The notes beneath the pieces were generated by a model. The model saw nothing but the letters and a program-made list of their open reading frames with translations, had not been told where the DNA came from and made no database searches. Made by a program: the position numbers and the translations under genes. Below are positions 34,506 to 57,434 of a stretch of DNA of 57,615 bases, piece by piece; the stretch's first letter is position 1; each line of letters starts with the position of its first letter. Origin of the DNA: a virus; IMG/VR virus record IMGVR_UViG_3300045911_000150, positions 1 to 57,615 of that record; one strand, 5' to 3'.

Positions 34506-34531
34506 GCGCGCACCCGGCAAGAATGTGAGGG

Positions 34532-43783: not shown

Positions 43784-43807
43784 GGTTTGTGACATCCGTC
43801 ACAAACC
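43784..43807. promoter_or_regulatory. Palindrome upstream of the polymerase-operon promoter
   Basis: Core TTTGTGAC-ATCC-GTCACAAA at 43786-43805 has extended 10-bp arms. It is the only copy that directly abuts a -35. It lies between the HD-hydrolase stop and the promoter of the polymerase operon. Confidence 0.8.
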
Positions 43808-43840
43808 TCGGCGCCGCGACTACCGTCCCCTACTGTCCCG

Positions 43841-44338
43841 CTAAAATATCTGCAGCTCATGCGCGCGCTTGAGAAACAGCGTCTTCGCCCGCTCGGGACT
43901 CAGGAACTGCACGGTGCGCCCGGGCCGGCGTGGGATTTCGACACCCATGGTCTCGGCCAACTCGATGTCCAACATGGTCCTGTCGGCCTCGATCACCCTT
44001 CGCGGCGTCTCCACCGAGACCTTGAACCGCCGCCGGACCCCTGCCTCCACACGGGCCTCCATCGCCTGATAGTCCGGGAGCAGAGACTTGAGCGGCGAAC
44101 TGACATCGCCGATCAGTGCCTCGTGGGCATCGTGCAGCAGCGCGTCGGCCGCCAGCGTCGCCGGCACCAGATAGCTCGCGTGGACGCTGTGCTCGGCCAC
44201 CGAGTAGAACCGCCGCGTGTGGCCAGTGAACCGGCAGATGTGGGCCAGCCCATGGGCGACATCCAACAGGGTCACGCGGTCGAAGCTCGGGTCGGCAAGG
44301 TCGACAACCGTGCCCGAGAACAGCTTGATCTGAGTCAT
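43841..44338 (-). CDS. HD-domain phosphohydrolase, YfbR/DatZ-like (165 aa)
   Basis: Conserved segments include DVAHGLAHICRFTGHTRRFY, SVAEHS (H50) and LLHDAHEA (H69, D70), then DRTMLDIE. This is the phage HD family related to 5'-deoxynucleotidases and dATP triphosphohydrolases. It may adjust nucleotide pools. No PurZ-like partner is present, so Z-DNA synthesis is not supported. The start overlaps the upstream stop (ATGA). Confidence 0.85.
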   Translation of the reverse strand: MTQIKLFSGTVVDLADPSFDRVTLLDVAHGLAHICRFTGHTRRFYSVAEHSVHASYLVPATLAADALLHDAHEALIGDVSSPLKSLLPDYQAMEARVEAGVRRRFKVSVETPRRVIEADRTMLDIELAETMGVEIPRRPGRTVQFLSPERAKTLFLKRAHELQIF

Positions 44339-44550
44339 GTGGGGGTATCCTCTTGCGTGAAGGCGCGTTGGGTCGCGATGAAGGCGTTGGCGGCCATGAA
44401 GCTGGCCGCTGCGGCGCCCTGCCAGTGTCGTGCGATCGCTTCGGCCGGGTTCTCGCCGGGTGCAATGCGGTGTCCGGCCGCCTGGCCGAACACCGAGAGG
44501 AAACACGCTTCTGCGATGCGATTGCGCTGGGCAATCTCGTCAGGACTCAC
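44335..44550 (-). CDS. Hypothetical protein (71 aa)
   Basis: It starts at GTG 44550, 11 nt inside the upstream gene, with AGGAGCGAAGCC providing the ribosome-binding site. The product is helical (SPDEIAQRNRIAEACFLSVF, EAIARHWQGAAAASF). Overlaps on both sides support translation; no family is recognised. Confidence 0.65.
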   Translation of the reverse strand: MSPDEIAQRNRIAEACFLSVFGQAAGHRIAPGENPAEAIARHWQGAAAASFMAANAFIATQRAFTQEDTPT

Positions 44551-44926
44551 GGCTTCGCTCCTGCGCACGAAGCGCCTTGACGGCGCCCATGTAGTCGCCA
44601 TCCGCCCACGCGACGACGGCGTCGGCGGCATGGGCGCAGGACGTGTCGGTCTCGCGGATCGCCTCTGCCAGCCGGGCGATGAACACATCCGCCGACATCG
44701 GCGCCGCCTTCGAGTCCCGTCGGAGCGTGTTCGCCAGCCACGGCGTGCGCTCGCGGTGCAGGACGTTGGGCACGAGCACGGCCAGCACGGCCATGCCCGG
44801 GGTCACCTGCACAGACCGGGCGACCTGGCTGGGGATGAACACCGCCTCGCGCGGCTCGGTCAGGGTGGAGCCGAACGCGCTGCCCGAAGGCAGCACGTTG
44901 GTGATGGTGATCGGAACCTCATACAT
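44540..44926 (-). CDS. Putative OB-fold (cold-shock-like) protein (128 aa)
   Basis: The first 65 residues (VPITITNVLPSGSAFGSTL, EAVFIPSQVARSVQVTPGM, VLVPNVLHRERTPWLA) follow the pattern of a small phage OB-fold family. A helical C-terminal half ends RAQERSRES. Nucleic-acid binding is inferred. GGAG lies 9 nt before ATG. Confidence 0.65.
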   Translation of the reverse strand: MYEVPITITNVLPSGSAFGSTLTEPREAVFIPSQVARSVQVTPGMAVLAVLVPNVLHRERTPWLANTLRRDSKAAPMSADVFIARLAEAIRETDTSCAHAADAVVAWADGDYMGAVKALRAQERSRES

Positions 44927-44942
44927 GATGGTATCTCCTGAC

Positions 44943-45806
44943 TCAGTCGGGGTTGCCGAAGGCGGCCATGATCCCGGCCATGTGGTCCATGATCGCGCGG
45001 GCCTCGTCGGCCGCCTTCTGGCGCGTGGCGTCGTTGGTCCTCAGCTCGGTGGCGTCGGGCCCGGTCAGCTTCGCCTCGATCATCTGCCGCAGACGCTCCA
45101 GGTTGGGGTCGTCGACGATGTTGAGTGCGGGGATGACCTGCACCAGCTCGCGCAGGTTCTCCACCAGCTCGACCCGGATCCCGGAGTTGGTCGTGGTGCG
45201 TTGCACGTAGTTGCTCAGCGCGTCCGCGAGGCGCTTCCACGTGGGCGCCATGGCGCGGTGCAGGCGCGCTTCCGCCGTTTTCTCCAGCCGCTCCACGACG
45301 CGCGGGTCGAGGTTCTCGGACACCTTCACCCGGAAGTCGCCGAGAGCGTTGACCGGCTCCATCTCCAGGTTGACATAGAACCGGCGCCGCACTTCCGCCG
45401 GCGACGGGTAGTCGTCGGCGTTGAACAGCGCGCCCATGCGGAACCGGGCGCGCTCGCGCTCGGCCGGGTAGATGTCGAACGCGAAGCGATCTGCGGCCTT
45501 GTCGTGCGCCGCAACCAGCGGCTCGTGTTCCTCAAGGAACTGCAGCAGCCCGCTGCGCTGGGTCAGCCGCGCGCCCGCGTCCGTCCACGGCAGGGTGCGC
45601 GCGTAGAGGTGCTGCCGCACCGCCGTGGCGGCCTGACCGATCTCGGCGAGCGCCGTCTCGGGCAGCAGGTGCTTGTTGACGCGGGCGGCGCCGATCTCGG
45701 CCTGCGCCTCGGTCGTGACCTTGCGGCTGGCGGCCTTGTCCAGCCGCTGTGCGGTCCACTTCCCGATATTCAGGGTCAGGACCATGCATTCTGTGACGAT
45801 GCTCAT
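44943..45806 (-). CDS. DUF3150-like phage protein (287 aa)
   Basis: The N-terminus (VLTLNIGKWTAQRLDKAAS) and central LYARTLPWTDAGARLTQRSG, LLQFLEEHE and RARFRMGALFNADDYPSPAEV segments match DUF3150-like proteins that are often near MoxR/VWA genes. The function is unknown. The leader GAGGATACACACACATG follows promoter 45835-45863. Confidence 0.75.
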   Translation of the reverse strand: MSIVTECMVLTLNIGKWTAQRLDKAASRKVTTEAQAEIGAARVNKHLLPETALAEIGQAATAVRQHLYARTLPWTDAGARLTQRSGLLQFLEEHEPLVAAHDKAADRFAFDIYPAERERARFRMGALFNADDYPSPAEVRRRFYVNLEMEPVNALGDFRVKVSENLDPRVVERLEKTAEARLHRAMAPTWKRLADALSNYVQRTTTNSGIRVELVENLRELVQVIPALNIVDDPNLERLRQMIEAKLTGPDATELRTNDATRQKAADEARAIMDHMAGIMAAFGNPD

Positions 45807-45834
45807 GTGTGTGTATCCTCATGCTGTGGGGTTA

Positions 45835-45863
45835 GGGATATAGGTAGACTGTCGATCTGTCAA
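45835..45863 (-). promoter_or_regulatory. Candidate promoter for the DUF3150/HD operon
   Basis: TTGACA (45863-45858), a 17-bp spacer and TATCCC (45840-45835). A better-looking TATATC would give only a 15-bp spacer. The perfect -35 and the intergenic place support it. Confidence 0.6.
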
Positions 45864-46594
45864 GGCTTGGTGCTCAGGTAGGGGTAGTCGGTGGGATCGA
45901 AGCCATAGTCAAAGCCGTGCAGGTGCATCTGCACACGCTCCACAAAGGTCAGGTCCACGAACGATTTGTGAACCAGCTTCTGGGCCGGGACCGCATCCGA
46001 AGGAACCTTCGTGCGCTTGCGAACGCCGTCGACGGTGTGGATCACCGTCGACCCATACTCCTCAACCACGTCGAGCATCAGCGCCCACGCCGCAGCCTGA
46101 TGCTTCAGCCCCTGCAGATGCGCCTTCTGCTCGGGCGACGGCACCCACGGCGGCGCGACGGTGATGGGGTCGCCGACGGGCTTGCATCCCGGACCGCCCC
46201 AGTAAACCGCGCACTGACCGTGGAACCGCTGCGGGATCGGTCGATCGGTCCAGTCCGGTGTCTTGCCGTAGTACGAGTGGTGCATCAGCTTGACGGCCAT
46301 GTTGAAGTCGTAGTCGATGACCAGGTGCTGCATACCCTTGCGGCTGAGCCACGCGGTCGGGATCGGCTTGTCGTCACCGGGGATGTACAGCTTCGGGCAA
46401 TCCGAGTCCGTCGTCGCCACGAGTTGTACGTTGCGCTTGCCGAACCGCCGCCGCTGATCGGGATCGGGCGCGGACCCCGACCAGATGCACTCGCCGGTCG
46501 AGAAGTCGGTGAAGTTGCGGTCGACCACGTGGAACGCGCGCCAGTGATCCCAGCGGTGCGCGGCCGGGTTCGCGTTGAAGTCAGGCATCTGCAT
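45860..46594 (-). CDS. Hypothetical protein (244 aa)
   Basis: The start MQMPDFNANPAAHRW is preceded by CTCACACACAGGAG and a palindrome 29 nt further upstream; reading through the palindrome would add a spurious N-terminus. The protein is Trp/His/Pro-rich (DHWRAFHVVDRNFTDFS, AVKLMHHSYYGKTPDW, FHGQCAVYWGGPGCKP). No family is recognised. Confidence 0.7.
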   Translation of the reverse strand: MQMPDFNANPAAHRWDHWRAFHVVDRNFTDFSTGECIWSGSAPDPDQRRRFGKRNVQLVATTDSDCPKLYIPGDDKPIPTAWLSRKGMQHLVIDYDFNMAVKLMHHSYYGKTPDWTDRPIPQRFHGQCAVYWGGPGCKPVGDPITVAPPWVPSPEQKAHLQGLKHQAAAWALMLDVVEEYGSTVIHTVDGVRKRTKVPSDAVPAQKLVHKSFVDLTFVERVQMHLHGFDYGFDPTDYPYLSTKP

Positions 46595-46623
46595 GTGAAT
46601 AGCTCCTGTGTGTGAGGTTGAAG

Positions 46624-46643
46624 TTTGTGACACATGTCACAAA
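46624..46643. promoter_or_regulatory. Palindrome in leader of 45860-46594
   Basis: TTTGTGAC-ACAT-GTCACAAA lies 29 nt before ATG 46594, directly after the stop of the upstream gene region. Confidence 0.8.
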
Positions 46644-46650
46644 GTTGTGG

Positions 46651-47391
46651 TCAGTAGCCCCAAGTCCGACATGCGGCGCGGCAGGCGTAGACATCGCGCC
46701 AGTCGCAGAGGTATGCGTACTCGGCTACGGTCAGGCAGTGCGCACGCATGTGGTTGTGCTCATAGTGCGCCACGGCCTTGATACCGCCCAGCTTCAGCAG
46801 CTCGGGCCACCGCGCCGGGTCGGCGATGATCCCGGCGACATCTACCTGACCCAACCACTTCCGGTCGTAGACCGGGAAGCCCATCGCCTGAGCCGCGCGC
46901 AGCCACTGGCGCACCTTGTCGAGCCCGGTCTCGCGACGGAACGCATTCGCCGCCTTGCGGTTGACGCGCGGCCAGATCCACGGTCTGGCGCCGGTCACCC
47001 CGCTGCCACGGATGGTCAGCACGTCGCCGCCACAGGCGCGATAGAAGTTGCCCGCGACGCGAACATGGCCCACGCTATACCCGCTCAGCGACGCGGAGAT
47101 GTGGGACGGAGCGTGCGCGTGGATGAACTCCGCCGTGGTCATGCTGTCGTAGATGCGCAGCACGACCGACCCGTCGGAGCGGTAGGTCACCACATCGGTC
47201 TGATGCAGGCGGAACACGACCGAGCCGTCGGCCAGCTTGCGCACACCGGTGTTGCGGTACCGACGATTCCTGAGCGGGCGCTCGTCGCCGTCGGCGGTCT
47301 CGCCGCGCCACGGTTTCATGGAGTTGTAGTAGGCCAGCGCCTCGGCATGGCTGTCGAGGCGCCGGGAAGAAAAGCGCATACCGCCGAACAT
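46651..47391 (-). CDS. Hypothetical protein (246 aa)
   Basis: It starts MFGGMRFSSRRLDSHAEA with leader CTCACACACAAGGAG but no palindrome. The central part (ADGSVVFRLHQTDVVTYRSD, GSVVLRIYDSMTTAEF) is a beta-rich domain typical of phage DUFs. A His/Cys-containing C-terminus (HYEHNHMRAHC, CDWRDVYACRAACRTW) could bind metal. The function is unknown. Confidence 0.7.
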   Translation of the reverse strand: MFGGMRFSSRRLDSHAEALAYYNSMKPWRGETADGDERPLRNRRYRNTGVRKLADGSVVFRLHQTDVVTYRSDGSVVLRIYDSMTTAEFIHAHAPSHISASLSGYSVGHVRVAGNFYRACGGDVLTIRGSGVTGARPWIWPRVNRKAANAFRRETGLDKVRQWLRAAQAMGFPVYDRKWLGQVDVAGIIADPARWPELLKLGGIKAVAHYEHNHMRAHCLTVAEYAYLCDWRDVYACRAACRTWGY

Positions 47392-47414
47392 GTTGTAGTC
47401 TCCTTGTGTGTGAG

Positions 47415-47693
47415 TCAGCTGTGAGTGAGGGCGCAGCCCGCATAGGCTGCGTCCAGGGTGGGGTAGGTCACGAACGTCCCGGGGTAGGGACGCCGGAACT
47501 TGTCGAACAGGGCCGTGTACAGGTCGTAGGCGCGCACCTCATCGCCGCACAGCACGACCGCGAACTGGCACCCGTCGCCGAAGGCGTTGCGGCAAAAGAT
47601 CTCGGCAAAGGTGCTGGTGCCGATGTCGCCCGTCTCGCGCACCACGCCGCCCGAGCAGACGAAGGCGATCAGCTTGAGTCGATGCTCGGTCAT
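47415..47693 (-). CDS. Hypothetical protein downstream of the VWA gene (92 aa)
   Basis: The start ATG overlaps the VWA-protein stop (ATGA). The product (LKLIAFVCSGGVVRETGD, EIFCRNAFGDGCQFAVVL) is a small alpha/beta protein. Coupling to the VWA-metallopeptidase gene suggests a shared pathway, but no motif gives a function. Confidence 0.65.
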   Translation of the reverse strand: MTEHRLKLIAFVCSGGVVRETGDIGTSTFAEIFCRNAFGDGCQFAVVLCGDEVRAYDLYTALFDKFRRPYPGTFVTYPTLDAAYAGCALTHS

Positions 47694-48871
47694 ATCCGCA
47701 CCACCTCTCCGAACGGCACCGCGACCTTGGTCGTGCAGACCGTGATCAGGGGGTAGTCCGGGGCAGAGCCAGGCCACGGAGTCTCGCCGTCCGTGATCAG
47801 CACGACCACGTCGGGGTTCAGCTCTGCGGCGTAGGCCAGCGGCACCCGCATGTCGGTGCCGCCGCCGCCCTTGGGCTCAAGCCGGATGGTGTCGCCGGAC
47901 TCGAACACCTGTTCGCCTGCGACGCGGGTATCGGCCCACAGGACGTGGATCGACCGGGGGTTCACTTCCTCGGCGATGTCCACGATCGAGCCGCCGATGC
48001 TCCGCAGATCGTCGCTGGTGATCGAGCCGGACGTGTCGCCGATCACCACCACCTTGCGGATCTGCGTGCTGTGGCGGCTGGGCAGGTAGACCTGCGAGAA
48101 GCGGCGGTTGCGGCGCGACCACGACTCGTTGGCCTTGACCACCGACCGCATCATGGGGCGCAGCAGCTCCTGCCACGGCACCGGGGGGTGCAGCAGGTTG
48201 TCGAGGGCCCGCAGCAGGCTGCCGGGCATGTTGCCCGCCATGCGGCCCATGTTGGTCGCCTGGGCGATGCGCTCGGTCAGGCGGCGCTCGATCTCGCGCA
48301 GCTTGGCCGGGTCGTGTGCAGCCGCCTCAGCCGCCGGGTCGGGCTTGCCGTCCTTGCCCAGCGAGCCGGGCGCCAGCAAGTCGCTGCCGGTGCCGGGGAT
48401 GCCATCGCCCTGCGTGTTGGGCGCCCCGCTGCCGGAGCCTTTGCCCGATCCGGGCCGCTGCGGGCGCTTGGGCTGCTTCTTCTCCAGCAGGGCGTAGATC
48501 TGCTCGGCGGCCATGTCCTTGTAGGTCTTGTCGACCAGCCCGCCCTCGGGCAGCTTGAACCCGCAGTCGATCAGGATCAGGTTGACGGCGTAGTCACAGG
48601 CCATGTTCCAGACCACAGGGTCTCGGCCCTGCCGCCGCAGCCCGTGCTTGAGCGCGATATGCAGCACCTCATGGGCCAGCACCCCGACGATCTCGTCGAG
48701 CGGCAGGCTGTCGAACCAGTCGGGGTCATAGGCGATGGACACCATGTCGGTGGCCGCCGTGCCGAGCCCCGGCACCCGGATCATGGGCGCGGAGACCAGC
48801 AGGGTGCCGAAGAAGGCTGACTTGAGCAGCAGCCTCGCTCGGGTTTTGAGGACTTTGTCAGAGTGCGGCAT
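47690..48871 (-). CDS. VWA protein with N-terminal HEXXH metallopeptidase-like domain (DUF2201 type, 393 aa)
   Basis: AHEVLHIALKHG carries HEXXH (67-71), as in the DUF2201 N-terminal domain. A Lys/Pro/Gly linker (about 130-185) follows. The VWA domain has the MIDAS triad: DTSGS (279-283), a Thr within GGGGTDMRVP and ITDGETPW. It is the partner of the MoxR ATPase encoded immediately upstream, an arrangement like RavA-ViaA and N4 gp24/gp25. Its role in infection is unknown. ATG has AAGGAG; a palindrome lies 31 nt upstream. Confidence 0.88.
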   Translation of the reverse strand: MPHSDKVLKTRARLLLKSAFFGTLLVSAPMIRVPGLGTAATDMVSIAYDPDWFDSLPLDEIVGVLAHEVLHIALKHGLRRQGRDPVVWNMACDYAVNLILIDCGFKLPEGGLVDKTYKDMAAEQIYALLEKKQPKRPQRPGSGKGSGSGAPNTQGDGIPGTGSDLLAPGSLGKDGKPDPAAEAAAHDPAKLREIERRLTERIAQATNMGRMAGNMPGSLLRALDNLLHPPVPWQELLRPMMRSVVKANESWSRRNRRFSQVYLPSRHSTQIRKVVVIGDTSGSITSDDLRSIGGSIVDIAEEVNPRSIHVLWADTRVAGEQVFESGDTIRLEPKGGGGTDMRVPLAYAAELNPDVVVLITDGETPWPGSAPDYPLITVCTTKVAVPFGEVVRI

Positions 48872-48902
48872 GTGTGTAGAACTCCTTGAGGGTAGGGTGA
48901 GG

Positions 48903-48922
48903 TTTGTGACATATGTCACAAA
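48903..48922. promoter_or_regulatory. Palindrome between MoxR and VWA genes
   Basis: TTTGTGAC-ATAT-GTCACAAA lies 31 nt before ATG 48871. Its flanks GG/CC extend the arms. It separates two functionally linked genes, so it may adjust their ratio. Confidence 0.8.
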
Positions 48923-48934
48923 CCTCGTGGGGTC

Positions 48935-49951
48935 TCACGGCTGGAACAGGGTGCGATACTGAGTCGCCAGCTTGAGGAACTCAGGCGCACCCAGCAGCGC
49001 GTTGTCGCGCTTGAGCGCCAGCTGCCACGCGAGGATCAGGAACTCCGGGTCCATGCGGGTCAGGTAGGTGTGGAGCGCCGAGACGTTCTTGAGGTCCATG
49101 GCGCCCGAGACCGACACGGCGGTCGCGTAGCGCATGGACAGCTCGTCGGGCAGCGGCGCCCCGGCCGGGTCGGCGAGAATCTTCGAGACCGGGATCACGT
49201 TCTTGATGTTCTCGATGAACCCCCAGAACTCCACCGCCGCGCCCTCGCCAACCAGGCCGGCCATGCCGATCCGCTTGGCTTCCTCGGGCGCCTTGGACGC
49301 ATAGACCCTAAAGGCGGCCATCCACGTGCGCGGGGTGGCGAACACCCGCTCGCCGCGCGCGGGGTCGAAGGTGGACACCAGCGGCTTGCGGAAGGACAGG
49401 AAGGCCACGCACTCGGCCGGGACCTTGCCCATCATGTAGGCCACTGCCACATCCGCCGACACGCCGAGCTCGACGTGGCAGAAGCGGTTGGCCAGCGGCA
49501 GGGGCATCTTGTTGGTGACGCCCTTGTCACCGTCGCGGTTGCCGGCGGCGATCTTGTAGACGTTCGGCTTGAGCCGATGCTCGCCGCAGGCGCCGTCGAG
49601 GATCAGCTGATAGGCCACGGCCATGACCGCCGGTTCGGCCGAGTTGATCTCGTCGAAAAACAGCACGATGGGCCGATTGTCAGGGAAGGCATCGTTGCCG
49701 ACGAAAGGCAACGTGCCGGGCATGTTCCAGACAGTCAGTCCCTTCTCCGGCACCGGGATGCCGCGCAGGTCCACCGAGTCGTACTGGCTGAGGCGGATGT
49801 CCACCAGCACGGCGCCCATGCGGTCGGCCAGCTGACGGACAGCATCCGACTTGCCGACGCCGGGCATACCCCAGATCATCACGGGCAGGTTGAGCGGAAT
49901 CGCCACGGTGTCGAAGAACTGGGCGAGGCTGACGTGATCGACGATATGCAT
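48935..49951 (-). CDS. MoxR-family AAA+ ATPase (338 aa)
   Basis: Walker A GMPGVGKS (28-35) and Walker B VLFFDEINSA (about 96-105) are clear, followed by a sensor-1-like AAGNRDGDKG. Family members remodel protein complexes with a VWA partner, and the VWA gene follows directly. It is the first gene downstream of promoter 50034-50062. Leader CTCACAGGAG and a palindrome 21 nt upstream precede ATG. Confidence 0.9.
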   Translation of the reverse strand: MHIVDHVSLAQFFDTVAIPLNLPVMIWGMPGVGKSDAVRQLADRMGAVLVDIRLSQYDSVDLRGIPVPEKGLTVWNMPGTLPFVGNDAFPDNRPIVLFFDEINSAEPAVMAVAYQLILDGACGEHRLKPNVYKIAAGNRDGDKGVTNKMPLPLANRFCHVELGVSADVAVAYMMGKVPAECVAFLSFRKPLVSTFDPARGERVFATPRTWMAAFRVYASKAPEEAKRIGMAGLVGEGAAVEFWGFIENIKNVIPVSKILADPAGAPLPDELSMRYATAVSVSGAMDLKNVSALHTYLTRMDPEFLILAWQLALKRDNALLGAPEFLKLATQYRTLFQP

Positions 49952-49972
49952 GTTGCAGTCTCCTGTGAGTAG

Positions 49973-49992
49973 TTTGTGACACCCGTCACAAA
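49973..49992. promoter_or_regulatory. Palindrome in the MoxR leader
   Basis: TTTGTGAC-ACCC-GTCACAAA lies between promoter 50034-50062 and ATG 49951, so it is inside the predicted 5' untranslated region, about 40 nt from the expected start site. Confidence 0.8.
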
Positions 49993-50033
49993 GTTGGGTT
50001 TGGTTGGTAGGCACAGCTTTCCGAACCAAGCAT

Positions 50034-50062
50034 ACACTATCATGGCTCGGACCTTATGTCAA
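50034..50062 (-). promoter_or_regulatory. Sigma70-type promoter for the MoxR/VWA operon
   Basis: TTGACA (50062-50057), a 17-bp spacer and TAGTGT (50039-50034). It shares the extended element GCTTGACATA with promoters 54566-54594 and 57435-57463. Flanks are AT-rich relative to the genome. Confidence 0.8.
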
Positions 50063-50096
50063 GCATTATCTCACATGTTGAGATTTCTCCCTCGGG

Positions 50097-50387
50097 TCAT
50101 GCGTGCCTCCAGTCGTTGACGATCCGGGGCTCGCCCTCGAACACGAGGTGCAGATTCAGGCCCTCGGCGACGGCCGCGATCTGCGCGGCGACCGTGGGGT
50201 CGTCGGTGTCGGGCTCGCCCTCGATGTCGCGGTAACGCTCCAGCGCGACCAGCGCGAGGATGGTCTCCCGGTCGCAGGCCGGCACACCGTGGAGCGTGTA
50301 GACCAGCGGCCACGGCGAGCACGGCGGGAACGGGGTGGCGGACTCCGTGACGATGGCGGTCACGGTGCGCGCGGTGTGGCAGTTCAT
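50097..50387 (-). CDS. Hypothetical protein (96 aa)
   Basis: The start MNCHTARTVTAIVTESA is set by the mini-ORF leader ATGGAGACCTGACATG. The product contains LVYTLHGVPACDRETIL and is otherwise helical. No family is recognised. The gene lies immediately upstream of the MoxR promoter. Confidence 0.65.
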   Translation of the reverse strand: MNCHTARTVTAIVTESATPFPPCSPWPLVYTLHGVPACDRETILALVALERYRDIEGEPDTDDPTVAAQIAAVAEGLNLHLVFEGEPRIVNDWRHA

Positions 50388-50415
50388 GTCAGGTCTCCAT
50401 GTGTTGAGGTTTAGG

Positions 50416-50435
50416 TTTGTGACACACGTCACAAA
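50416..50435. promoter_or_regulatory. Palindrome plus mini-ORF leader of 50097-50387
   Basis: TTTGTGAC-ACAC-GTCACAAA is followed by CCTCAACACATGGAGACCTGACATG-type leader. The mini-ORF (ATG GAG ACC TGA) occupies 50389-50400 on the minus strand. Confidence 0.8.
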
Positions 50436-50436
50436 G

Positions 50437-50697
50437 TCAGGCTTCGGGCAGGGACTCCCACAGGTGGTAGGACTCGTCGCCGCCCGTGGGCAACCACTCA
50501 ACCTCGTAGGGCTCGATGCCCTCGTCTTCGCACTGGCAGGACCATTCGGACGCCCAGTACTCGATGTGCGTGTCGGACTCCTGGCGGCAGTAGTGGTTGC
50601 GCCAGACGCACGGGTTGCCGCTGGTGTCCACGTCGAGGTGGGCGAAGTCGGGGTGCCCGAGGCGCACGAGGTCCGCGCGGGTCTGGTAGGCGGTCAT
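50437..50697 (-). CDS. Hypothetical protein (86 aa)
   Basis: ATG overlaps the upstream stop (ATGA). The product is acidic and Trp/Cys-rich (NPCVWRNHYCRQESD, YWASEWSCQCEDEG), possibly metal-binding through its four Cys. The function is unknown. Confidence 0.65.
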   Translation of the reverse strand: MTAYQTRADLVRLGHPDFAHLDVDTSGNPCVWRNHYCRQESDTHIEYWASEWSCQCEDEGIEPYEVEWLPTGGDESYHLWESLPEA

Positions 50698-51224
50698 GCT
50701 TCAATCTCCAGATGTGCGACGGCCTCAGCCGCCATGGCGAACGGATCGTCGCCGACGAGCAGGAACCCGTCCGCGTCGTTGTCGGGATCCCAGAGAACCC
50801 ACCGGCCCTTGTGCTCGGCCGCACGGGCGATCAGGGCCTCGGCGTCGTTCAGCTCCTTGCGCGCCTCGGCCTCGAACGCCGGGCGCAGGTCGATGGCGTA
50901 GCCGTGCGCGGTCAGCGCCTGGGTCGCCGGGGACCACGGCCACAGGGTGCCGTCTGCCGGGGCCTCGGACCACATGCCGCCCTCGCTGGGCGACAGGGTG
51001 CAGTCGTTGGCCAGCCACTTGCCATTCTCGTCGGCCCACTTCACCACGGGCACGCCATCGCCGAAGGTCATCTGGCACCCGGTGCAGGTCAGCACGGTGC
51101 CCCGCGGCACGCGCATCGCCCAGCCCTGCTGGGCGTAGGGCCCGGTCGGCTTCATGCCGCTCAGCTGGACATCGTCGGCCACCACGCGCCACTTCTGGCC
51201 GGGCTTGAAGTCTCTCTGGATCAT
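50694..51224 (-). CDS. Hypothetical protein (176 aa)
   Basis: ATG 51224 is preceded by ATGGAGACCTAACATG-type leader and a palindrome 22 nt upstream. The protein (RDFKPGQKWRVVADDVQLSG, RVPRGTVLTCTGCQMTFGDG, CTLSPSEGGMWSE) resembles small phage beta-barrel proteins with a CxxC pair. No function is assigned. Confidence 0.65.
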   Translation of the reverse strand: MIQRDFKPGQKWRVVADDVQLSGMKPTGPYAQQGWAMRVPRGTVLTCTGCQMTFGDGVPVVKWADENGKWLANDCTLSPSEGGMWSEAPADGTLWPWSPATQALTAHGYAIDLRPAFEAEARKELNDAEALIARAAEHKGRWVLWDPDNDADGFLLVGDDPFAMAAEAVAHLEIEA

Positions 51225-51246
51225 GTTAGGTCTCCATCTGTTGAAG

Positions 51247-51266
51247 TTTGTGACACATGTCACAAA
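51247..51266. promoter_or_regulatory. Palindrome plus mini-ORF leader of 50694-51224
   Basis: TTTGTGAC-ACAT-GTCACAAA. The mini-ORF here is ATG GAG ACC TAA (51226-51237): the stop has changed from TGA to TAA but remains a stop, which suggests the mini-ORF itself is selected. Confidence 0.8.
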
Positions 51267-51267
51267 G

Positions 51268-51684
51268 TCAGGTCAGCATCCGCACGGCGGTGTTTGCCCG
51301 GTTGTACATGTCGTCGAGCCAGGCGTTCCAGCGCAGCGCGGCGGCGAGGCGCGCAGAGTCGGTCGCCTCGTCGAGCGTGAGCAGGATCGACCCGTCGTAC
51401 GCTTCGTGAAACGTGGCGACAGCAGGCGCGATGGCCGGGTCGAACAGCATGACGGAGGCGTCGTACTCGTCGCCCCGCCCGGAGCGCCACGCGAAGGGCG
51501 TCCCGGTGCCGATCAGGTGGCTCTCCACCGCCTCGGGCAGCGAGCCGTAGTTGACTTCTTCCCAGCCGTACTGGATCGGCGAGTCAACGTCGGTCGGCTC
51601 GCCCAGCGCGCTCGTGAGGCGCTCCATCAGCTCCGGCGTCGGCGGGCTGGCGAGGATCAAGATGCAGTAGGTGCGATCACTCAT
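51268..51684 (-). CDS. Hypothetical protein (138 aa)
   Basis: The start MSDRTYCILILASPPTPEL is preceded by the mini-ORF leader (ATG GAG ACC TGA, 51686-51697) but no palindrome. An alpha/beta fold is likely (GSILLTLDEATDSARLAAAL). No family is recognised. Confidence 0.65.
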   Translation of the reverse strand: MSDRTYCILILASPPTPELMERLTSALGEPTDVDSPIQYGWEEVNYGSLPEAVESHLIGTGTPFAWRSGRGDEYDASVMLFDPAIAPAVATFHEAYDGSILLTLDEATDSARLAAALRWNAWLDDMYNRANTAVRMLT

Positions 51685-51685
51685 G

Positions 51686-51754
51686 TCAGGTCTCCATGCG
51701 GTTGGTGCAAGCGCGGGCCGTGGGGTAGACCACGCCGCGTACCTCGATCTGCAT
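51686..51754 (-). CDS. Possible 22-aa coupling peptide ending in the mini-ORF leader
   Basis: ATG 51754 overlaps the upstream stop (TGATG), and the frame ends in NRMET at the TGA of the leader of 51268-51684. It would carry ribosomes from the upstream gene to the next start. It could simply be the mini-ORF frame open by chance. Confidence 0.35.
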   Translation of the reverse strand: MQIEVRGVVYPTARACTNRMET

Positions 51755-52098
51755 CACCAGTCGTAGAGCGGCAGCTGGTCCAGCGTGTCGCCGTCCCTGT
51801 CGAGGCACAGCCAGACGCAGCCCAGTTTGCGCGCACAGGTCATGCAGTCCGCGAGGTCGGGCGGCAGGGTGTCGCTGCACTCGGCCCACGCCTGCGCGTC
51901 GCCCGGCACGTGGATCCACCAGCCGTAGTCGCCCTTCGGATACACGGTCAGGCGCAGGCGGGGCTGTCGTGCCCACGGGTCGGTCGCGCGGGTCATGCGC
52001 CGGCAGTGGCTGTCCAGCCGCTGCGCGGTGCTTTCGCGGATGTGTCCGGTGCTGATGGTGAGCATGAGCTCGACGCCGACGGGATGTCGGTAGTCCAT
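51754..52098 (-). CDS. Hypothetical protein (114 aa)
   Basis: The start MDYRHPVGVELMLTISTG follows a mini-ORF leader (ATG GAG AAC TGA, 52100-52111) and a palindrome. The product has a Cys-rich segment (DCMTCARKLGCVWLCLDRDG) and a beta-rich middle. The function is unknown. Confidence 0.65.
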   Translation of the reverse strand: MDYRHPVGVELMLTISTGHIRESTAQRLDSHCRRMTRATDPWARQPRLRLTVYPKGDYGWWIHVPGDAQAWAECSDTLPPDLADCMTCARKLGCVWLCLDRDGDTLDQLPLYDW

Positions 52099-52126
52099 GT
52101 CAGTTCTCCATGTGTTGAGGTTTAAG

Positions 52127-52146
52127 TTTGTGACATGTGTCACAAA
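52127..52146. promoter_or_regulatory. Palindrome plus mini-ORF leader of 51754-52098
   Basis: TTTGTGAC-ATGT-GTCACAAA lies 28 nt before ATG 52098. Its first half supplies the TGA stop of gene 52140-52544. Confidence 0.8.
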
Positions 52147-52544
52147 GTCAGTGCAGCCGCTGCGCGCAGCCGGGTGAACCAGTCGGGGTGCAGGCTGATG
52201 GAGTAGTCCCACTCCACGCAGGTTGCGAGGAACAGGGGGCAGTACTCGAAATCGAAGGCCACGGGATCGTGCTCGGGGCTCAGCGCGGCCCAGCCGATGT
52301 CGCAGGGCAGCACTATCTGCGACACGGCGTGGCGCAGTCCGATCGAGCCGTACCTGACCCGGACAGCGGCGTAGGTCTGCGCCACCGCGCTTTCGCCGGG
52401 GTCGATGAAGGCTTCCCAGAGGCACATCGCCGTTTCCAACTCGCTCTTGCGCGAGCGCGCCTCGGACTGGCGCAAATAGTCCTCGACACGCGCGATCTCG
52501 GTCAGGGTCATCTGTGCAGCCCAGTTGGGGGGAATGTGCTTCAT
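52140..52544 (-). CDS. Hypothetical protein (134 aa)
   Basis: ATG overlaps the HTH-protein stop (ATGA), so the two are coupled. The product (SELETAMCLWEAFIDPGESA, YGSIGLRHAVSQIVLPCDIG) is mostly helical. The gene ends inside the palindrome at 52127-52146 (TTG TGA). No family is recognised. Confidence 0.65.
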   Translation of the reverse strand: MKHIPPNWAAQMTLTEIARVEDYLRQSEARSRKSELETAMCLWEAFIDPGESAVAQTYAAVRVRYGSIGLRHAVSQIVLPCDIGWAALSPEHDPVAFDFEYCPLFLATCVEWDYSISLHPDWFTRLRAAAALTL

Positions 52545-52762
52545 CGCTTCTTCCTCCGGGCGAAGATCTCGATGCCGAGGTCGAGGTTGATGGCGAACAG
52601 GGTGTAGTCGCGCGGCCAGCGCGTCTTGCCCCGACGGATGGCATAGATCGCCGACGTGGACACGCCGATGCGCTTGCTCAGGCGGTAGACATCCTCGCCG
52701 TGGAGCGCATCGCGCACCACGGCCATCATGTCGGCACCGCTGGCGACGGGGATGTCGGTCAC
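52541..52762 (-). CDS. Small HTH DNA-binding protein (73 aa), candidate regulator
   Basis: VYRLSKRIGVSTSAIYAIRR (about 25-44) is a Cro/CI-type helix-turn-helix; the C-terminus is basic (ARRKKR). It starts at GTG with AAGGAG upstream. It is the only clear HTH regulator in the window and lies in the middle of the palindrome-rich block, so it is the leading candidate to bind the palindromes. That link is inference. Confidence 0.8.
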   Translation of the reverse strand: MTDIPVASGADMMAVVRDALHGEDVYRLSKRIGVSTSAIYAIRRGKTRWPRDYTLFAINLDLGIEIFARRKKR

Positions 52763-52766
52763 GGGC

Positions 52767-52913
52767 CTACTCCTTCGTGAAGCCGTGGAACCAGCCGGGC
52801 CCGCGGGTGTCGGGGCGGCTGCACCACGCCTGCGCCTCGGCCAGGGTCAGGCCGCGCCGGATGACGCGCCGGCGCCCGCTGCGCGAGAAGCGGATGATCA
52901 TGTAGGTGTCCAT
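52767..52913 (-). CDS. Small conserved phage protein (48 aa)
   Basis: The product [20 protein letters not shown] continues [20 protein letters not shown]. This pattern (basic N-terminus, LTLAEAQ, C-x-R-x-D-T-x-G-x-GWF) is found in a small family of phage proteins of unknown function. It has the palindrome and mini-ORF leader and heads a group containing the HTH gene. Confidence 0.75.
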
Positions 52914-52941
52914 GTCAGGTCTCCATGTGCTGAGGGTGAAG

Positions 52942-52961
52942 TTTGTGACACATGTCACAAA
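52942..52961. promoter_or_regulatory. Palindrome plus mini-ORF leader of 52767-52913 (HTH operon)
   Basis: TTTGTGAC-ACAT-GTCACAAA lies 28 nt before ATG 52913, with mini-ORF ATG GAG ACC TGA at 52915-52926. It provides the stop codon of gene 52955-53179. If the HTH protein binds here, it would control its own transcript. Confidence 0.8.
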
Positions 52962-53179
52962 CTCTGGTCGTGCAGGGCGGCGTCGGCCCGGCGAAACTGG
53001 CGGCTGTCGTGCGGGTTGCCGCTGTTGCACATCGGGCACGAGCATTTCCGCAGGTTGTCGGCCCAGCGCAGGACCTTGGTCATGTCGCGCCAGCCGAGGT
53101 GGCGGGTCACGACGGGCAGAGCGCGGGCGATGGCCTTCTGGCGCTGAGCGCGGCGCCAGGCGCGGTCACGGGTGGTCAT
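52955..53179 (-). CDS. Small basic protein with Cys cluster (74 aa)
   Basis: The start [20 protein letters not shown] is highly basic; [12 protein letters not shown] supplies three Cys and a His, a possible zinc knuckle. Its last codons TTG-TGA lie inside the palindrome at 52942-52961. It follows the RadC-like stop by one base. The function is unknown; nucleic-acid binding is plausible. Confidence 0.7.
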
Positions 53180-53180
53180 G

Positions 53181-53669
53181 TCAGAAAACTCCGATGGAAC
53201 GAAAGCTGGTGGTCTTGTCGGCGGCCACGAGGACGTGGTCGTGCAGGGTCACGTCGATGGTCTTGAGCGCGTCGGCGATCCGGCGGGTCATGTGGATGTC
53301 GGCCTCGCTGGGGCTCACGCTCCCGCTGGGGTGATTGTGGGTGATGATGACGGCCGAGGCGTCGAGCGCCAGCGCCCGCGCCACGATCTGCCGGGGGTAG
53401 ACGGGAACGTGGTCCACGCTGCCCCGCGCCACCTCCTCGTCGGCGATCAGGGCGTTGCGCTTGTCGAGGTAGAGGACGCGGAAGCACTCCACCCGCTGCG
53501 GCCCCAGCGTGACCTTGAGGTAGTCGAGCAGCGCGCCCCACGACTGGATGACGGGCCGGCCGGCGATCATGCGGGCGAGGATGGCCCGCGCCTCGCGCAA
53601 GGTGCGCTGCTGGTCAGGGGTGAGCATGTGCGCCCAGTCCGGCTCCCGGATGTCAGCGATCTTTTCCAT
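53181..53669 (-). CDS. RadC-like JAB domain protein (162 aa)
   Basis: VIITHNHPSG (H111, H113) with S/EAD (about 121-124) is the RadC JAMM/JAB metal motif; the first 60 residues form a helical segment. RadC proteins are frequent on mobile elements; their biochemical role remains unsettled. Leader CTCACACACAAGGAG and a palindrome 27 nt upstream precede ATG. Confidence 0.87.
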   Translation of the reverse strand: MEKIADIREPDWAHMLTPDQQRTLREARAILARMIAGRPVIQSWGALLDYLKVTLGPQRVECFRVLYLDKRNALIADEEVARGSVDHVPVYPRQIVARALALDASAVIITHNHPSGSVSPSEADIHMTRRIADALKTIDVTLHDHVLVAADKTTSFRSIGVF

Positions 53670-53696
53670 GTGTCGTCTCCTTGTGTGTGAGTCAAG

Positions 53697-53716
53697 TTTG
53701 TGACATGTGTCACAAA
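53697..53716. promoter_or_regulatory. Palindrome in the RadC-like leader
   Basis: TTTGTGAC-ATGT-GTCACAAA lies 27 nt before ATG 53669 and supplies the TGA stop of gene 53710-54003. Confidence 0.8.
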
Positions 53717-54003
53717 GTCTGTTTGCGGCACCAGTCCAGCAGGGCGGGCGGCAGGTGTTTCGCGGCGCAGGCCAGCGCCCCCTCGGGGTCGCTCCGCGCG
53801 CACCGGTCCAGCAGGTCGGGCGGCAGCCGGTGCGCGGCGTGGACCAGCGCCAGCGGCGGATGCTCTCGCGCGCACCAGTCCAGCAGGTCGGGCGGCAGCC
53901 GGTCCGCGGCGTGGACCAGCGCGCGCCACGACGCAGGCTGCTCGTCGTCCGGCAGGCCAAGCAGCGCCACCAGCGCCGCCACCCGGTCCCGCGCGTCGGT
54001 CAC
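53710..54003 (-). CDS. Helical-repeat protein (97 aa), LPPDLLDWCAR units
   Basis: It starts at GTG 54003 overlapping the upstream stop (GTGA). About 70 of 97 residues are three tandem units of 22-25 residues, each with AL-x-HAA-x-RLPPDLLD-x-CAR; the third is diverged (AAKHLPPALLDWCRK). The units resemble short leucine-rich-variant or HEAT-like helical repeats. The last codons lie in a palindrome. The function is unknown; a protein-interaction scaffold is plausible. Confidence 0.7.
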   Translation of the reverse strand: MTDARDRVAALVALLGLPDDEQPASWRALVHAADRLPPDLLDWCAREHPPLALVHAAHRLPPDLLDRCARSDPEGALACAAKHLPPALLDWCRKQTL

Positions 54004-54455
54004 AGCGCCACCCACCGCTGGCCGGTGCGCGGATCGCGGATGGTGACGGTGCGCGTGGGGCCGTACACGTCCTCGATCATGGCCGGGCGGTAGCGGCCCG
54101 AGGCCACGGCCCGGTCGAAGGCATCCAGCACGGACTGGGGAGTCTGCCCCACGTGGGCGCGCGGCCGGGCGACGATGCCCGCCGGCTTGCGCTTGCTGGC
54201 CGGGTCCGGGATCGCGTCGCTGCACTCGGGCAGGGCGGGCGCGCGGCCCACCGACACGGCGCAGGGACTCAGATCGGCCGGCCTGACCACGGGGGCGCTC
54301 TTGCGGCGGCGCGGCTTTGCCGGCGCGGCAGGGTTCAGCCCGAGGCTCATCAGGAACCGCGCGTGGGCGGCATGGGCGGCATCGCGGCTGGCGCGCTCGC
54401 CAGCAGCCAGAGGCGGAGCGGAGCGACCGGAGCGGTCGGCGACATAGATGATCAT
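54000..54455 (-). CDS. Hypothetical protein (151 aa), Pro/Arg-rich
   Basis: The start MIIYVADRSGRSAPPL follows leader CTCACACACAAGGAT and a palindrome 31 nt upstream. A basic linker (AAPAKPRRRKSAPVVRP) is followed by a helical segment and a final beta segment (GPTRTVTIRDPRTGQRW). It is the first gene of the accessory block after promoter 54566-54594. The function is unknown. Confidence 0.65.
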   Translation of the reverse strand: MIIYVADRSGRSAPPLAAGERASRDAAHAAHARFLMSLGLNPAAPAKPRRRKSAPVVRPADLSPCAVSVGRAPALPECSDAIPDPASKRKPAGIVARPRAHVGQTPQSVLDAFDRAVASGRYRPAMIEDVYGPTRTVTIRDPRTGQRWVAL

Positions 54456-54486
54456 GGCAGGTATCCTTGTGTGTGAGGTTGAGGAG

Positions 54487-54605: not shown

Positions 54606-54636
54606 CCCGGAGCGCCTCCATGCGGGGCACTCCGGG
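54606..54636 (-). terminator. Terminator after the HNH gene
   Basis: An 11-bp stem CCCGGAGTGCC/GGCGCTCCGGG (one wobble) followed on the minus strand by ATATTTTA. It isolates the HNH transcript from the downstream promoter. Confidence 0.65.
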
Positions 54637-54771: not shown

Positions 54772-55350
54772 TCATTCCGCGGCCTCTCGGGCTGCGGCGG
54801 CCCGAGCCTTGCGCCGGGCCTTCAGCTTGTCGTGGCAGGTCCTGATCACAGCGACGATCAGATCGCACTCCCTGGGGTCAGGACGCTCGGCCCAGATGCC
54901 GCGCATCAGAGTGTCGACCATCGCCCGCGCGGCGCTTCGAGCGTGGCTGCCTCCCCACGGATCGACCTTGCCGTTGTAAGGGGTGCGGGGCGGCAGCCAC
55001 ACAAGGTTGTCCAGCGCGCAGTCGGCAAGAATGCCGTTCTTGTGCTCCAGCACCATGTCCGGGATGTCGGGCTTGAGTCCGAAGGCAGCGGCCACGGCGT
55101 GCTTCAGCTGGATCGCGCAATACTTGCGCTGGCCGTGAACCCGGTGGAAGCCGATCGGCTGGATGAACAGGGTGCCGTTGGGCCGCACGGACGCCTTGAG
55201 CGGGCGGGGATGGTCCATGCGCTGACCGGCGAAGCTGTGCGTGCCTGCCCATGTGCGAACGCGGCCGAGATTGGAAATCTCCACGAGTCCACGGAACTCG
55301 GTGTCTCGGACAGGCGGCAGCGGTTTCCACACTTCTTGAGGGGTCGTCAT
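54772..55350 (-). CDS. NUMOD4-HNH endonuclease, homing type (192 aa)
   Basis: EVWKPLPPVRDTEFRGLVEI with SNLGRVRT (NUMOD4, about residues 6-34) is followed by an HNH core (LEHKNGILADCALDNLVWL, about 100-120) and a basic C-terminal helix. This architecture is typical of free-standing homing endonucleases of phages. Start MTTPQEV has AGGAG about 10 nt upstream. It is alone between a promoter and a terminator, as expected for an inserted unit. Confidence 0.88.
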   Translation of the reverse strand: MTTPQEVWKPLPPVRDTEFRGLVEISNLGRVRTWAGTHSFAGQRMDHPRPLKASVRPNGTLFIQPIGFHRVHGQRKYCAIQLKHAVAAAFGLKPDIPDMVLEHKNGILADCALDNLVWLPPRTPYNGKVDPWGGSHARSAARAMVDTLMRGIWAERPDPRECDLIVAVIRTCHDKLKARRKARAAAAREAAE

Positions 55351-55383
55351 CGGAGATTCTCCTGGGTTGGGGCTGGTGGAAGG

Positions 55384-55412
55384 CATGTAGCAGACGGTTT
55401 TGCCCATTTCAA
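55384..55412 (-). promoter_or_regulatory. Promoter for the HNH gene
   Basis: TTGAAA (55412-55407), a 17-bp spacer and TACATG (55389-55384), about 35 nt before ATG 55350. Confidence 0.55.
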
Positions 55413-55842
55413 GGGGGTTAATAGAGGCTTTTGCCCATTGGGCGGGCTAATGGGTTGTTTTCGACCAAGGTGAGTCAGTCAGGGGGCGGTTAAGTAGCTG
55501 ATGCAGCACGAAGGTGAGTCCACTGGTCAAAATAGACACGGTTTTAGAGCGATAGTAAGTGTGTCTGGCATAGGATTCGGGGGGATTCGGGAGTTCGCCA
55601 CATGTTGGCAACTAAAAATGGCATTCCGTACCGTGACTACAGCAAAAAAACCTGTCTATCCAGTCTATTTTATATATCTATTGACTTATAAACAAACAAA
55701 AACAACAACATGGAGATCGCCCGACTGAAGGCCTCCGGCGACCACTAGACTCAGTGGACCCCCCCAATGGACGCATTGGACCCCCCCAATAGGTCGCGTT
55801 TTCTCTATTCGCCTACCCCGAGGTGGTCAGAATCGGCCCAAG

Positions 55843-55862
55843 TTTGTGACATCTATCACAAA
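55843..55862. promoter_or_regulatory. Palindrome (one mismatch) at the start of the iteron array
   Basis: TTTGTGAC-ATCT-ATCACAAA differs from the others by one base in the right arm. It directly precedes iteron 1 (55866). Confidence 0.7.
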
Positions 55863-55865
55863 CTT

Positions 55866-56210
55866 GTTGGAGACTTGCCCTATTGGGGACCTACACTAGG
55901 TTCACCGGTTGGAAACTTTCTCTATTCGCGCCTACACTAGGTTCACCGGTTGGAAACTTCCCCTATTCACGCACTACACTAGGTTCACATGTTGGAAACT
56001 TTCCCTATTCACGCACTACACTAGGTTTGCATGTTGGAAACTCTCTCTATTCGCTCACTACACTAGGTTTACATGTTGGAAACTTTTCCTATTCGTGCGC
56101 GAGTTTGTGACATGTGTCACAAACTTGTTGGAGACTTCACCTATTCGTGCGCGGCACTAGAGTCACTTGTTGGAGATTCTTGCCTGGCGACGGCACTACC
56201 GTCCCACTAC
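55866..56210. repeat. Eight 42-bp iterons
   Basis: Units start GTTGGA(A/G)A at 55866, 55908, 55949, 55991, 56033, 56075, 56127 and 56169, mostly 42 bp apart. The core is GTTGGAAACT then CCTATTC then CACTACACTAGGTT. Between 56075 and 56127 the spacing is 52 because a palindrome occupies part of the unit. Such regularly spaced iterons are typical of initiator-binding sites. Confidence 0.85.
56104..56123. promoter_or_regulatory. Palindrome inside the iteron array
   Basis: TTTGTGAC-ATGT-GTCACAAA sits between iterons 6 and 7 and is followed by ACTTGTTGGAGACTT, the same junction as after the 55843 palindrome. Confidence 0.8.
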
Positions 56211-56400
56211 TGTCCCGTATCGGCTGCTGGCGCAGCCTGCATTGGGGTCGGCTGCTGGTGCAGCCTGCGTGGTGAATAGAGAAATGGAGTCCGCGTTGGG
56301 GGCGGCGGGCTGCGCCGCCTGCGTGGTGAATAGGATCGTCGCGGCGAATAGGCCCGTTGTGGCGAATAGGGCAATAGGGTCTGGGCGAGTCCTCAGCAAG

Positions 56401-56420
56401 TTTGTGACATGTGTCACAAA
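56401..56420. promoter_or_regulatory. Palindrome downstream of the early gene terminators
   Basis: TTTGTGAC-ATGT-GTCACAAA lies between the iteron region and the twin terminators. No start codon follows on the minus strand, so it is not a leader copy. Confidence 0.8.
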
Positions 56421-56444
56421 CTCGGGCCCTGTGCGGCAGGCATG

Positions 56445-56472
56445 AAAAAACCCCCCGGCTTGCGCCGGGGGG
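56445..56472 (-). terminator. Intrinsic terminator, second of a pair
   Basis: Minus strand: CCCCCCGGC-GCAA-GCCGGGGGG followed by TTTTTT. It is part of a direct repeat that also contains the 56503-56530 copy. Confidence 0.9.
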
Positions 56473-56502
56473 TTGGGGGCCGGGGGCTGGGCGGCAGGCA
56501 TG

Positions 56503-56530
56503 AAAAAACCCCCCGGCTTGCGCCGGGGGG
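56503..56530 (-). terminator. Intrinsic terminator, first of a pair
   Basis: An identical hairpin and T-run lies 25 nt after the stop of the 56556-57365 gene. Two consecutive strong terminators would keep early transcription out of the iteron region. Confidence 0.9.
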
Positions 56531-56555
56531 TTGGGGGCCGTTCGGGCCGGGGCGG

Positions 56556-57365
56556 TTACTTCGAGGTCTCCGCCTTGACGGCCGCGATGAAGGCCTCATA
56601 GGCGCTGCGCAGCGGGCCGGGCAGGCTCTTGCGATTTTTCTTCATGTTGGCGACCATGAACGCGGCTTCGTTCTGCGCGTGGGCGTACCATTCGGCCTTG
56701 CTCACCAAGATCGGCAGGGTGAGGCCCTGCGCGGCCGGCACCTCGGCCGGCACCTCGGCCGGCGCCTCGGCCGGCGCCTCGGGCTCCGACTCGGTCTGCG
56801 TCATGCGCGGCTTGCGCGAGCTGATCTTGACGGCGGTCATGTCGGCCGGAGGCGGGTTCGTGGCCAGCGGCACGAAGAACGCATCCGAATTGATCGCCGT
56901 GGTGTCGGCCGGGGTGGGCGACTCGGTGTCGGCCGGGGTGGGCGACTCGGTGTCGGCCGGGGTGGGCGACTCGGTGTCGGTCGCGGCCGACGGCCGCGCG
57001 CCGCCCTGCGGCGCGTCGCTCTGAAGATCCAGCTTGGCCAGCAGGCGCGAACGGGCCTGCCGCGCGGCATCGTAGGCGGTTTTCCAGCCCTGCGGTCGAT
57101 CCTTGTCGGCGAAATCGAACCACGCCAGCGCCTTGGCCATGGATTTGACGTTGCAGGGCATCCCCAACGCGTGGGCGATGTAGCCCGCATCGAACGTACG
57201 CCGCATCTGAGTGGACACGACGCCAGCGACACCGGCCGAGTTGCGGAACGCCTTTTCGACGGCCGCGCGCAGCGCCGCATCCTTGGCGCTGGCCATGTGG
57301 CCCGCATCGAAGAGTCCGCGATCCGCCTCGGACGGGTTGAACGGGGTCGGCTTGGGTTTGGTCAT
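56556..57365 (-). CDS. Early protein with (ADTESPTP)n repeat, paralogue of the 930-1577 product (269 aa)
   Basis: Residues about 1-125 match the N-terminal domain of the 930-1577 protein by spacing of F, GY, RP-x2-W, AR and RLLA-L-LQS. Three ADTESPTP units (DNA about 56905-56980) follow, then a C-terminal domain with a short APAEVPAEVP repeat and VSKAEWYAHAQNEAAFMVAN. ATG 57365 has leader CACACATAGGAG; the longer frame from 57434 would run into the promoter. It is transcribed alone from 57435-57463 to the twin terminators. The function is unknown. Confidence 0.8.
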   Translation of the reverse strand: MTKPKPTPFNPSEADRGLFDAGHMASAKDAALRAAVEKAFRNSAGVAGVVSTQMRRTFDAGYIAHALGMPCNVKSMAKALAWFDFADKDRPQGWKTAYDAARQARSRLLAKLDLQSDAPQGGARPSAATDTESPTPADTESPTPADTESPTPADTTAINSDAFFVPLATNPPPADMTAVKISSRKPRMTQTESEPEAPAEAPAEVPAEVPAAQGLTLPILVSKAEWYAHAQNEAAFMVANMKKNRKSLPGPLRSAYEAFIAAVKAETSK

Positions 57366-57434
57366 AGCAGTAACTCCTATGTGTGATTTGGGCGGGTTGC
57401 CCGGCTGGCCTCGGTTATTCGCGACCATACACAT

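Follow-up and report, generated by a model that had tools for sequence, protein, structure and literature searches.

The intergenic region at positions 55408–56555 of the phage record analyzed here is, judging from its sequence, probably the replication origin of the phage. This reading is well supported because the region combines a conserved position, meltable DNA, a family-wide repeated motif and a conserved neighbouring gene, and because an initiator-type helicase is encoded in the same genome.

The DNA analyzed (the window, 57,615 bases in total) is read as a circular phage record with a unit of 57,489 bp, the first 126 bases being identical to the last 126. Because this end overlap (1–126/57490–57615) is itself made up of a 60-bp tandem repeat with a palindrome, present 2.1 times, neither the actual number of copies nor the join that closes the circle is certain. 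Genes for the terminase, portal (head-tail adaptor) and major head protein are on the plus strand, and those for a family-A DNA polymerase, a helicase and a DUF927 protein are on the minus strand. The C-terminal part of a 2395-aa protein encoded at 10931–18118 matches DarB-like antirestriction families. Among annotated phages, the nearest one identified was Pseudomonas phage Rollin (portal 39%, PrimPol-helicase 30%). The viral contig G001 encodes a PrimPol-helicase 90% identical to that of the window and ends at window position 54636, just before the repeat array described below, so no close homologue of the array was available for comparison. A scan of genome contigs produced one match, to an alphaproteobacterial MAG contig.

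Composition and repeats of the intergenic region

The following features were located in the region and at its left edge.

54772–55407, minus strand: HNH-endonuclease-like early gene at the left edge of the region
55408–56555, no strand: intergenic region, proposed replication origin (biggest gap between predicted genes)
55611–55710, no strand: AT-rich stretch, probable DNA unwinding element (lowest of all 100-bp windows genome-wide for both GC and duplex stability)
55656–55683, plus strand: short motifs CTATCC (55656), CTATTT (55665), TATATAT (55671) and CTATTG (55678), 9 and 13 bp apart in the AT-rich stretch (class of the enriched relatives' motif CTATCC/GGATAG; arrays of 9-bp period at the matching place in Rollin and the relatives G003 and L059)
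55742–55785, no strand: 22-bp tandem repeat, two copies, with CCAATGG/CATTGG (repeat search)
55841–55864, no strand: palindrome AGTTTGTGACATCTATCACAAACT, one arm mismatch, replacing the left box of unit 1 (sequence)
55865–56179, plus strand: eight 12-bp iteron cores, TGTTGGARACTT-like, starting at 55865, 55907, 55948, 55990, 56032, 56074, 56126 and 56168
56102–56125, no strand: palindrome AGTTTGTGACATGTGTCACAAACT, perfect, replacing the left box of unit 7 (sequence)
56274–56369, minus strand: four GAATAG (CTATTC on the minus strand), inverted relative to the array, at 56274, 56328, 56346 and 56364
56399–56422, no strand: third palindrome copy, at the right edge of the region (sequence)
56423–56538, minus strand: two copies of a 58-bp element that contain a hairpin resembling an intrinsic terminator and insulate the region from the gene upstream (repeat search)

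The region has a GC content of 54%, compared to ~66% for the genome, and a search of 55408–56555 for coding-like ORFs found none, in agreement with the first-pass annotation, which had placed a candidate origin here and reported no gene. The AT-rich DNA described there at about 55610–55720 was confirmed: at 31% GC, 55611–55710 is the lowest 100-bp window genome-wide (genome ~66%), and it is also the least stable, with a nearest-neighbour energy of -1.20 kcal/mol per step in 100-bp windows against a genome mean of -1.62 and -1.31 for the next site. The nearby CCAATGG/CATTGG repeat appears equivalent to a CATTGA/TCAATG element enriched in the relatives.

The eight regularly spaced iterons of the earlier description were likewise recovered. 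Their cores are spaced 42, 41, 42, 42, 42, 52 and 42 bp apart, and the array has a TRF score of 308, compared to a maximum of 60 among 500 dinucleotide shuffles. Each unit can be divided into three boxes, CTACACTAGGTT, TGTTGGARACTT and CTATTC, with the full left box present in units 2–6 only, CTATTC to the right of the core in most units, and unit 8 degenerate. A palindrome of the form AGTTTGTGAC-N4-GTCACAAACT replaces the first box of units 1 and 7, with one mismatch in unit 1. The first of these copies lies before iteron 1, as originally noted; the second had been described as inserted between iterons 6 and 7, and is present there but stands in place of the left box rather than as a plain insertion, which accounts for the 52-bp spacing. 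Three further elements extend the earlier description, namely the sets of CTATTC and GAATAG, the third palindrome at 56399 and the two terminator copies at 56423–56538, both of which end the neighbouring gene. Eleven of the 15 CTATTC copies in the genome fall within this 1 kb, as seven direct copies (55805–56141) followed by four inverted GAATAG (56274–56369); an inverted arrangement of the motif around the melting site is weakly supported (p = 0.016). Several regularly spaced direct repeats are thus found with an adjacent AT-rich, probable unwinding element, as in iteron-type origins, and the proposed origin would be a variant of that known type.

DNA searches with the array or the palindrome returned no match in phage or viral collections. 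In the region, no exact DnaA box (TTWTNCACA) was found, two were found with one mismatch, and there was no exact IHF site. DnaA boxes are common in the iteron-type origins of plasmids and are not universal. GC skew, proposed in the first-pass annotation as a check, was computed with detrending; its minimum was at 48.7 kb and its maximum at 18.5 kb, with small amplitude and no switch at the region, and it is uninformative as to where replication starts.

The palindrome, TTTGTGAC-N4-GTCACAAA, occurs in ten copies within 43784–54485 and additionally at 55841, 56102, 56399, 57490 and 57550. A different palindrome, TTTGCTAC-N5-GTAGCAAA, is present in three copies at 117–259 within 58-bp repeats, with CTATTC at 146 and 204. 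The ten copies far from the array are in the 5' leaders of early minus-strand genes, directly before the ribosome-binding site, and are one ground for regarding the region mainly as transcription control of the early operon, in which the palindromes and repeats would serve as operators or as sites for activators, and the AT-rich DNA would be the promoter of the leftward HNH gene. By eye, the minus strand of the AT-rich DNA shows a possible TTGTTT-N17-TATATA-like promoter, and in some relatives the region is flanked by XRE-type HTH genes; in addition, the two terminators shut off the neighbouring gene. However, the other early genes have one palindrome with neither array nor AT-rich block, the promoter scan returned no consensus promoter, and the CTATTC/CTATCC motif differs from the palindrome and is concentrated in the region; transcription control as the main function is considered unlikely. 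Contig G001 retains seven palindrome copies, mostly with a spacer one base longer, so an RNA hairpin fits at least as well as a DNA site of fixed spacing. From position alone, it is possible that the regulator acting at the palindrome is coupled to replication, as had been suggested.

Position and design of the region in related phages

Related loci were collected by a terminase-alignment scan, which gave 222 related places; 80 of these were fetched, and 32 loci had enough flanking sequence. By the author's count, the AT-richest 600 bp lay 1.5–6.5 kb upstream of the terminase gene in 29 of the 32 loci. In the window, the distance from the AT-rich region to the terminase gene is 4.4 kb round the circle. 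The genome-wide compositional (AT) minimum falls at this terminase-upstream place in the window and in four relatives (G003, G004, G006 and G007). Relatives that keep an AT-rich, repeat-bearing region at the matching position have terminase identities of 57–69%, and their AT-rich regions gave no alignment to that of the window. Their common design is TATATAT-like DNA together with short repeats, often 9 bp apart (TTGGATAGT in G003, TGGACTAGT in L059 and TTGCATACT in Rollin). The comparison with relatives thus supports the earlier proposal that replication starts here, and GC skew shows nothing either way.

Enrichment of 6-mers was scored with no motif chosen in advance in 30 non-redundant regions, including that of the window. 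The top enriched word was CTATCC/GGATAG, with at least three copies in 7 of the 30 regions (expected 0.1) and a test statistic of 10.9, compared to at most 4.85 in shuffles. The next enriched words were ATATAT and related words, and CACTAG and CATTGA were enriched as well; CACTAG is contained in the window iteron. The CTATTC of the window, a one-base variant, is judged equivalent to CTATCC. In one relative (L042:1521–1579, in G003), and at the equivalent place in L093, an inverted repeat, CCCCTATGG...CCATAGGGG, lies between inverted CTATCC clusters of the proposed origin.

Long tandem iterons were found in some relatives only: nine units of ~29 bp in L099, and three plus three inverted units of 30 bp in L059. 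Long repeats in the relatives differ from these or are absent, so the 42-bp iterons are unlikely to be a universal part of the origin. Its core probably consists of the AT-rich DNA and the short motifs at 9-bp intervals, and the 42-bp array would be a binding or control block specific to this lineage. A specific form of the origin reading is that the array is accessory control, serving to titrate the initiator or to regulate copy number in the manner of inc iterons or P4 crr, and that the minimal origin is the AT-rich stretch with the 9-bp-spaced motifs. The retention of AT-rich DNA and short motifs in relatives whose long repeats are different or absent agrees with this, but the array units hold CTATTC, and the first of them lies some 150 bp away from the AT-rich stretch, which is what would be expected of primary binding sites; we give accessory control a substantial chance, though somewhat short of even.

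A close named counterpart is region 1–1455 of Pseudomonas phage Rollin (OR577172), which likewise is AT-rich and non-coding and occupies the corresponding place in the genome. It has 9-bp repeats and a repeated palindrome of its own; it differs in having no sequence similarity to the window region and no long iterons, and the Rollin record contains a run of N. A short palindrome of its own, differing from that of the window, is present in four to eleven copies in each of L054, L059, L061, L062, L065, L078, L099, L118, L121 and Rollin (L019:1–500), often flanking the proposed origin. None was found in 50 block-shuffled controls, and these palindromes are a family-wide, phage-specific repeated element with a probable regulatory role.

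Direct-repeat arrays are also found in packaging (pac/cos) sites and partition centromeres, and PhiM6, a distant relative by portal protein, was reported with a predicted pac site (PMC6256558). The region is nevertheless very unlikely to be either, given that no ParA or ParB was found among the scanned proteins, that 4.4 kb and other genes separate the region from the terminase gene, and that a different repeat block (2112–2210) is directly upstream of the likely small-terminase gene. That block is an AT-rich 41-bp tandem repeat of 2.4 copies, and the ORF, from 2286 on the plus strand, was assigned by eye; the block is possibly a packaging site. Tandem repeats resembling CCCGCGCGCACCCGCGCA occupy about 300 bp at 1718–2014.

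Neighbouring gene and candidate initiator

Two protein-coding genes bear on the origin reading.

56556–57434, minus strand: conserved gene beside the region, 292 aa, helical protein of unknown fold, with a paralogue at 930–1577 (HMM match, AlphaFold2)
31536–34520, minus strand: PrimPol-DUF927 protein, AEP primase domain and SaPI-Rep/Cch-type helicase, candidate initiator (profile and structure matches)

In most relatives the region is immediately followed, toward the terminase, by a minus-strand gene. An HMM built from the relatives only, leaving out the window, matched the product of 56556–57434 at 2.2e-13, the one strong match among 2116 ORFs, with a weak match to the paralogue; this match ties the window region to those of the relatives by synteny. 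As a single query the protein returned no match. Its AlphaFold2 model consists of confident helices, and fold searches with the model found no match in the PDB or among viral models, which is not proof of a new fold. At a guess, it is an origin-binding or accessory protein.

The PrimPol-DUF927 protein is 994 aa long and contains the DUF927 helicase core (Pfam DUF927, 3.8e-21). Profile matches to SCCmec Cch (5dgk) and SaPIbov1 Rep (8tch) were at about 1e-21. In VIA-align, residues 392–966 aligned to 5dgk and 8tch with Z of 27.2 and 26.0 and an rmsd of 13–14, a high value that probably reflects domain movement or model error. The structural alignment extends to model residue 966 and chain residues 549/556, and would include a putative C-terminal DNA-binding domain (about residues 845–966). 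The first 227 residues match AEP primases (S-2L PrimPol, Z 18.3, rmsd 2.9). The protein is present in 6 of 7 relatives' records longer than 50 kb, and was not found in G015 and shorter contigs. SaPI Rep binds the iterons of its origin via its C-terminal domain, and Cch, a DUF927 protein, is a relative of it (PMC7581432). Where DUF927 domains are joined to AEP primases, they are predicted to act as helicases in mobile-element replication (PMC5862659). By analogy, the PrimPol-helicase is the likely initiator at the region.

The gene of this candidate is 21 kb from the proposed origin. It is separated from a convergent gene by 13 bp, so the origin cannot be directly downstream of it, unlike in SaPIs. 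As in SaPIbov1 Rep and SCCmec Cch, the helicase is of the DUF927 class, aligned across almost the whole chain, and the SaPI Rep origin also has short repeats; here, however, the helicase forms one protein with an AEP primase, its gene is far from the proposed origin, and each repeat is a composite unit of 42 bp. Lambda-type phage origins, with O protein iterons and AT-rich DNA, share the direct repeats beside AT-rich DNA, but the region described here does not lie inside an initiator gene, no O or P homologue was found among the scanned proteins, and the initiator class is another one. In RSF1010 oriV (RepC iterons, RepA helicase, RepB' primase), iterons are likewise combined with an AEP-type primase, and the window primase domain resembles RepB'; there, three proteins take the place of one fused protein, and no RepC was identified here.

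Against the origin reading stand the missing GC-skew switch, the distance of the initiator gene, a neighbouring protein with no recognised DNA-binding fold, the lack of exact DnaA and IHF sites, the restriction of long tandem iterons to some relatives, and the abundance of CTATCC in only 7 of 30 regions.

Proposed mechanism and significance

If the region is the origin, initiation may proceed as follows. The PrimPol-DUF927 initiator helicase, the most likely candidate among the phage proteins, would bind the repeated CTATTC/CTATCC-type sites and melt the AT-rich stretch at 55611–55710. It would then load as the helicase and prime synthesis with its own primase domain, and the phage family-A polymerase would extend the primers. 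The 42-bp array would be a lineage-specific block of binding sites raising or controlling initiation. More speculatively, the palindromes that replace half a unit could give the early-gene regulator a place at which to compete with the initiator or assist it.

On the broadest interpretation, a widespread and largely uncultured phage group has an origin of conserved design and fast-changing sequence, fired by a PrimPol fused to an initiator helicase of the satellite (SaPI Rep) type; in this phage the early-gene palindrome would be built into the iteron units, such that one factor could switch between early transcription and replication. Taken as a whole this remains doubtful and is put forward tentatively. 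The literature search yielded no description of an origin for this phage group. If true, the region and the PrimPol-helicase would provide a concrete origin and initiator pair for a large phage group known almost only from metagenomes, and an initiator helicase type of staphylococcal islands would also drive phage genomes, from a distant origin. Fast-changing sites within a constant layout would then make this group a good system for initiator/origin co-evolution.
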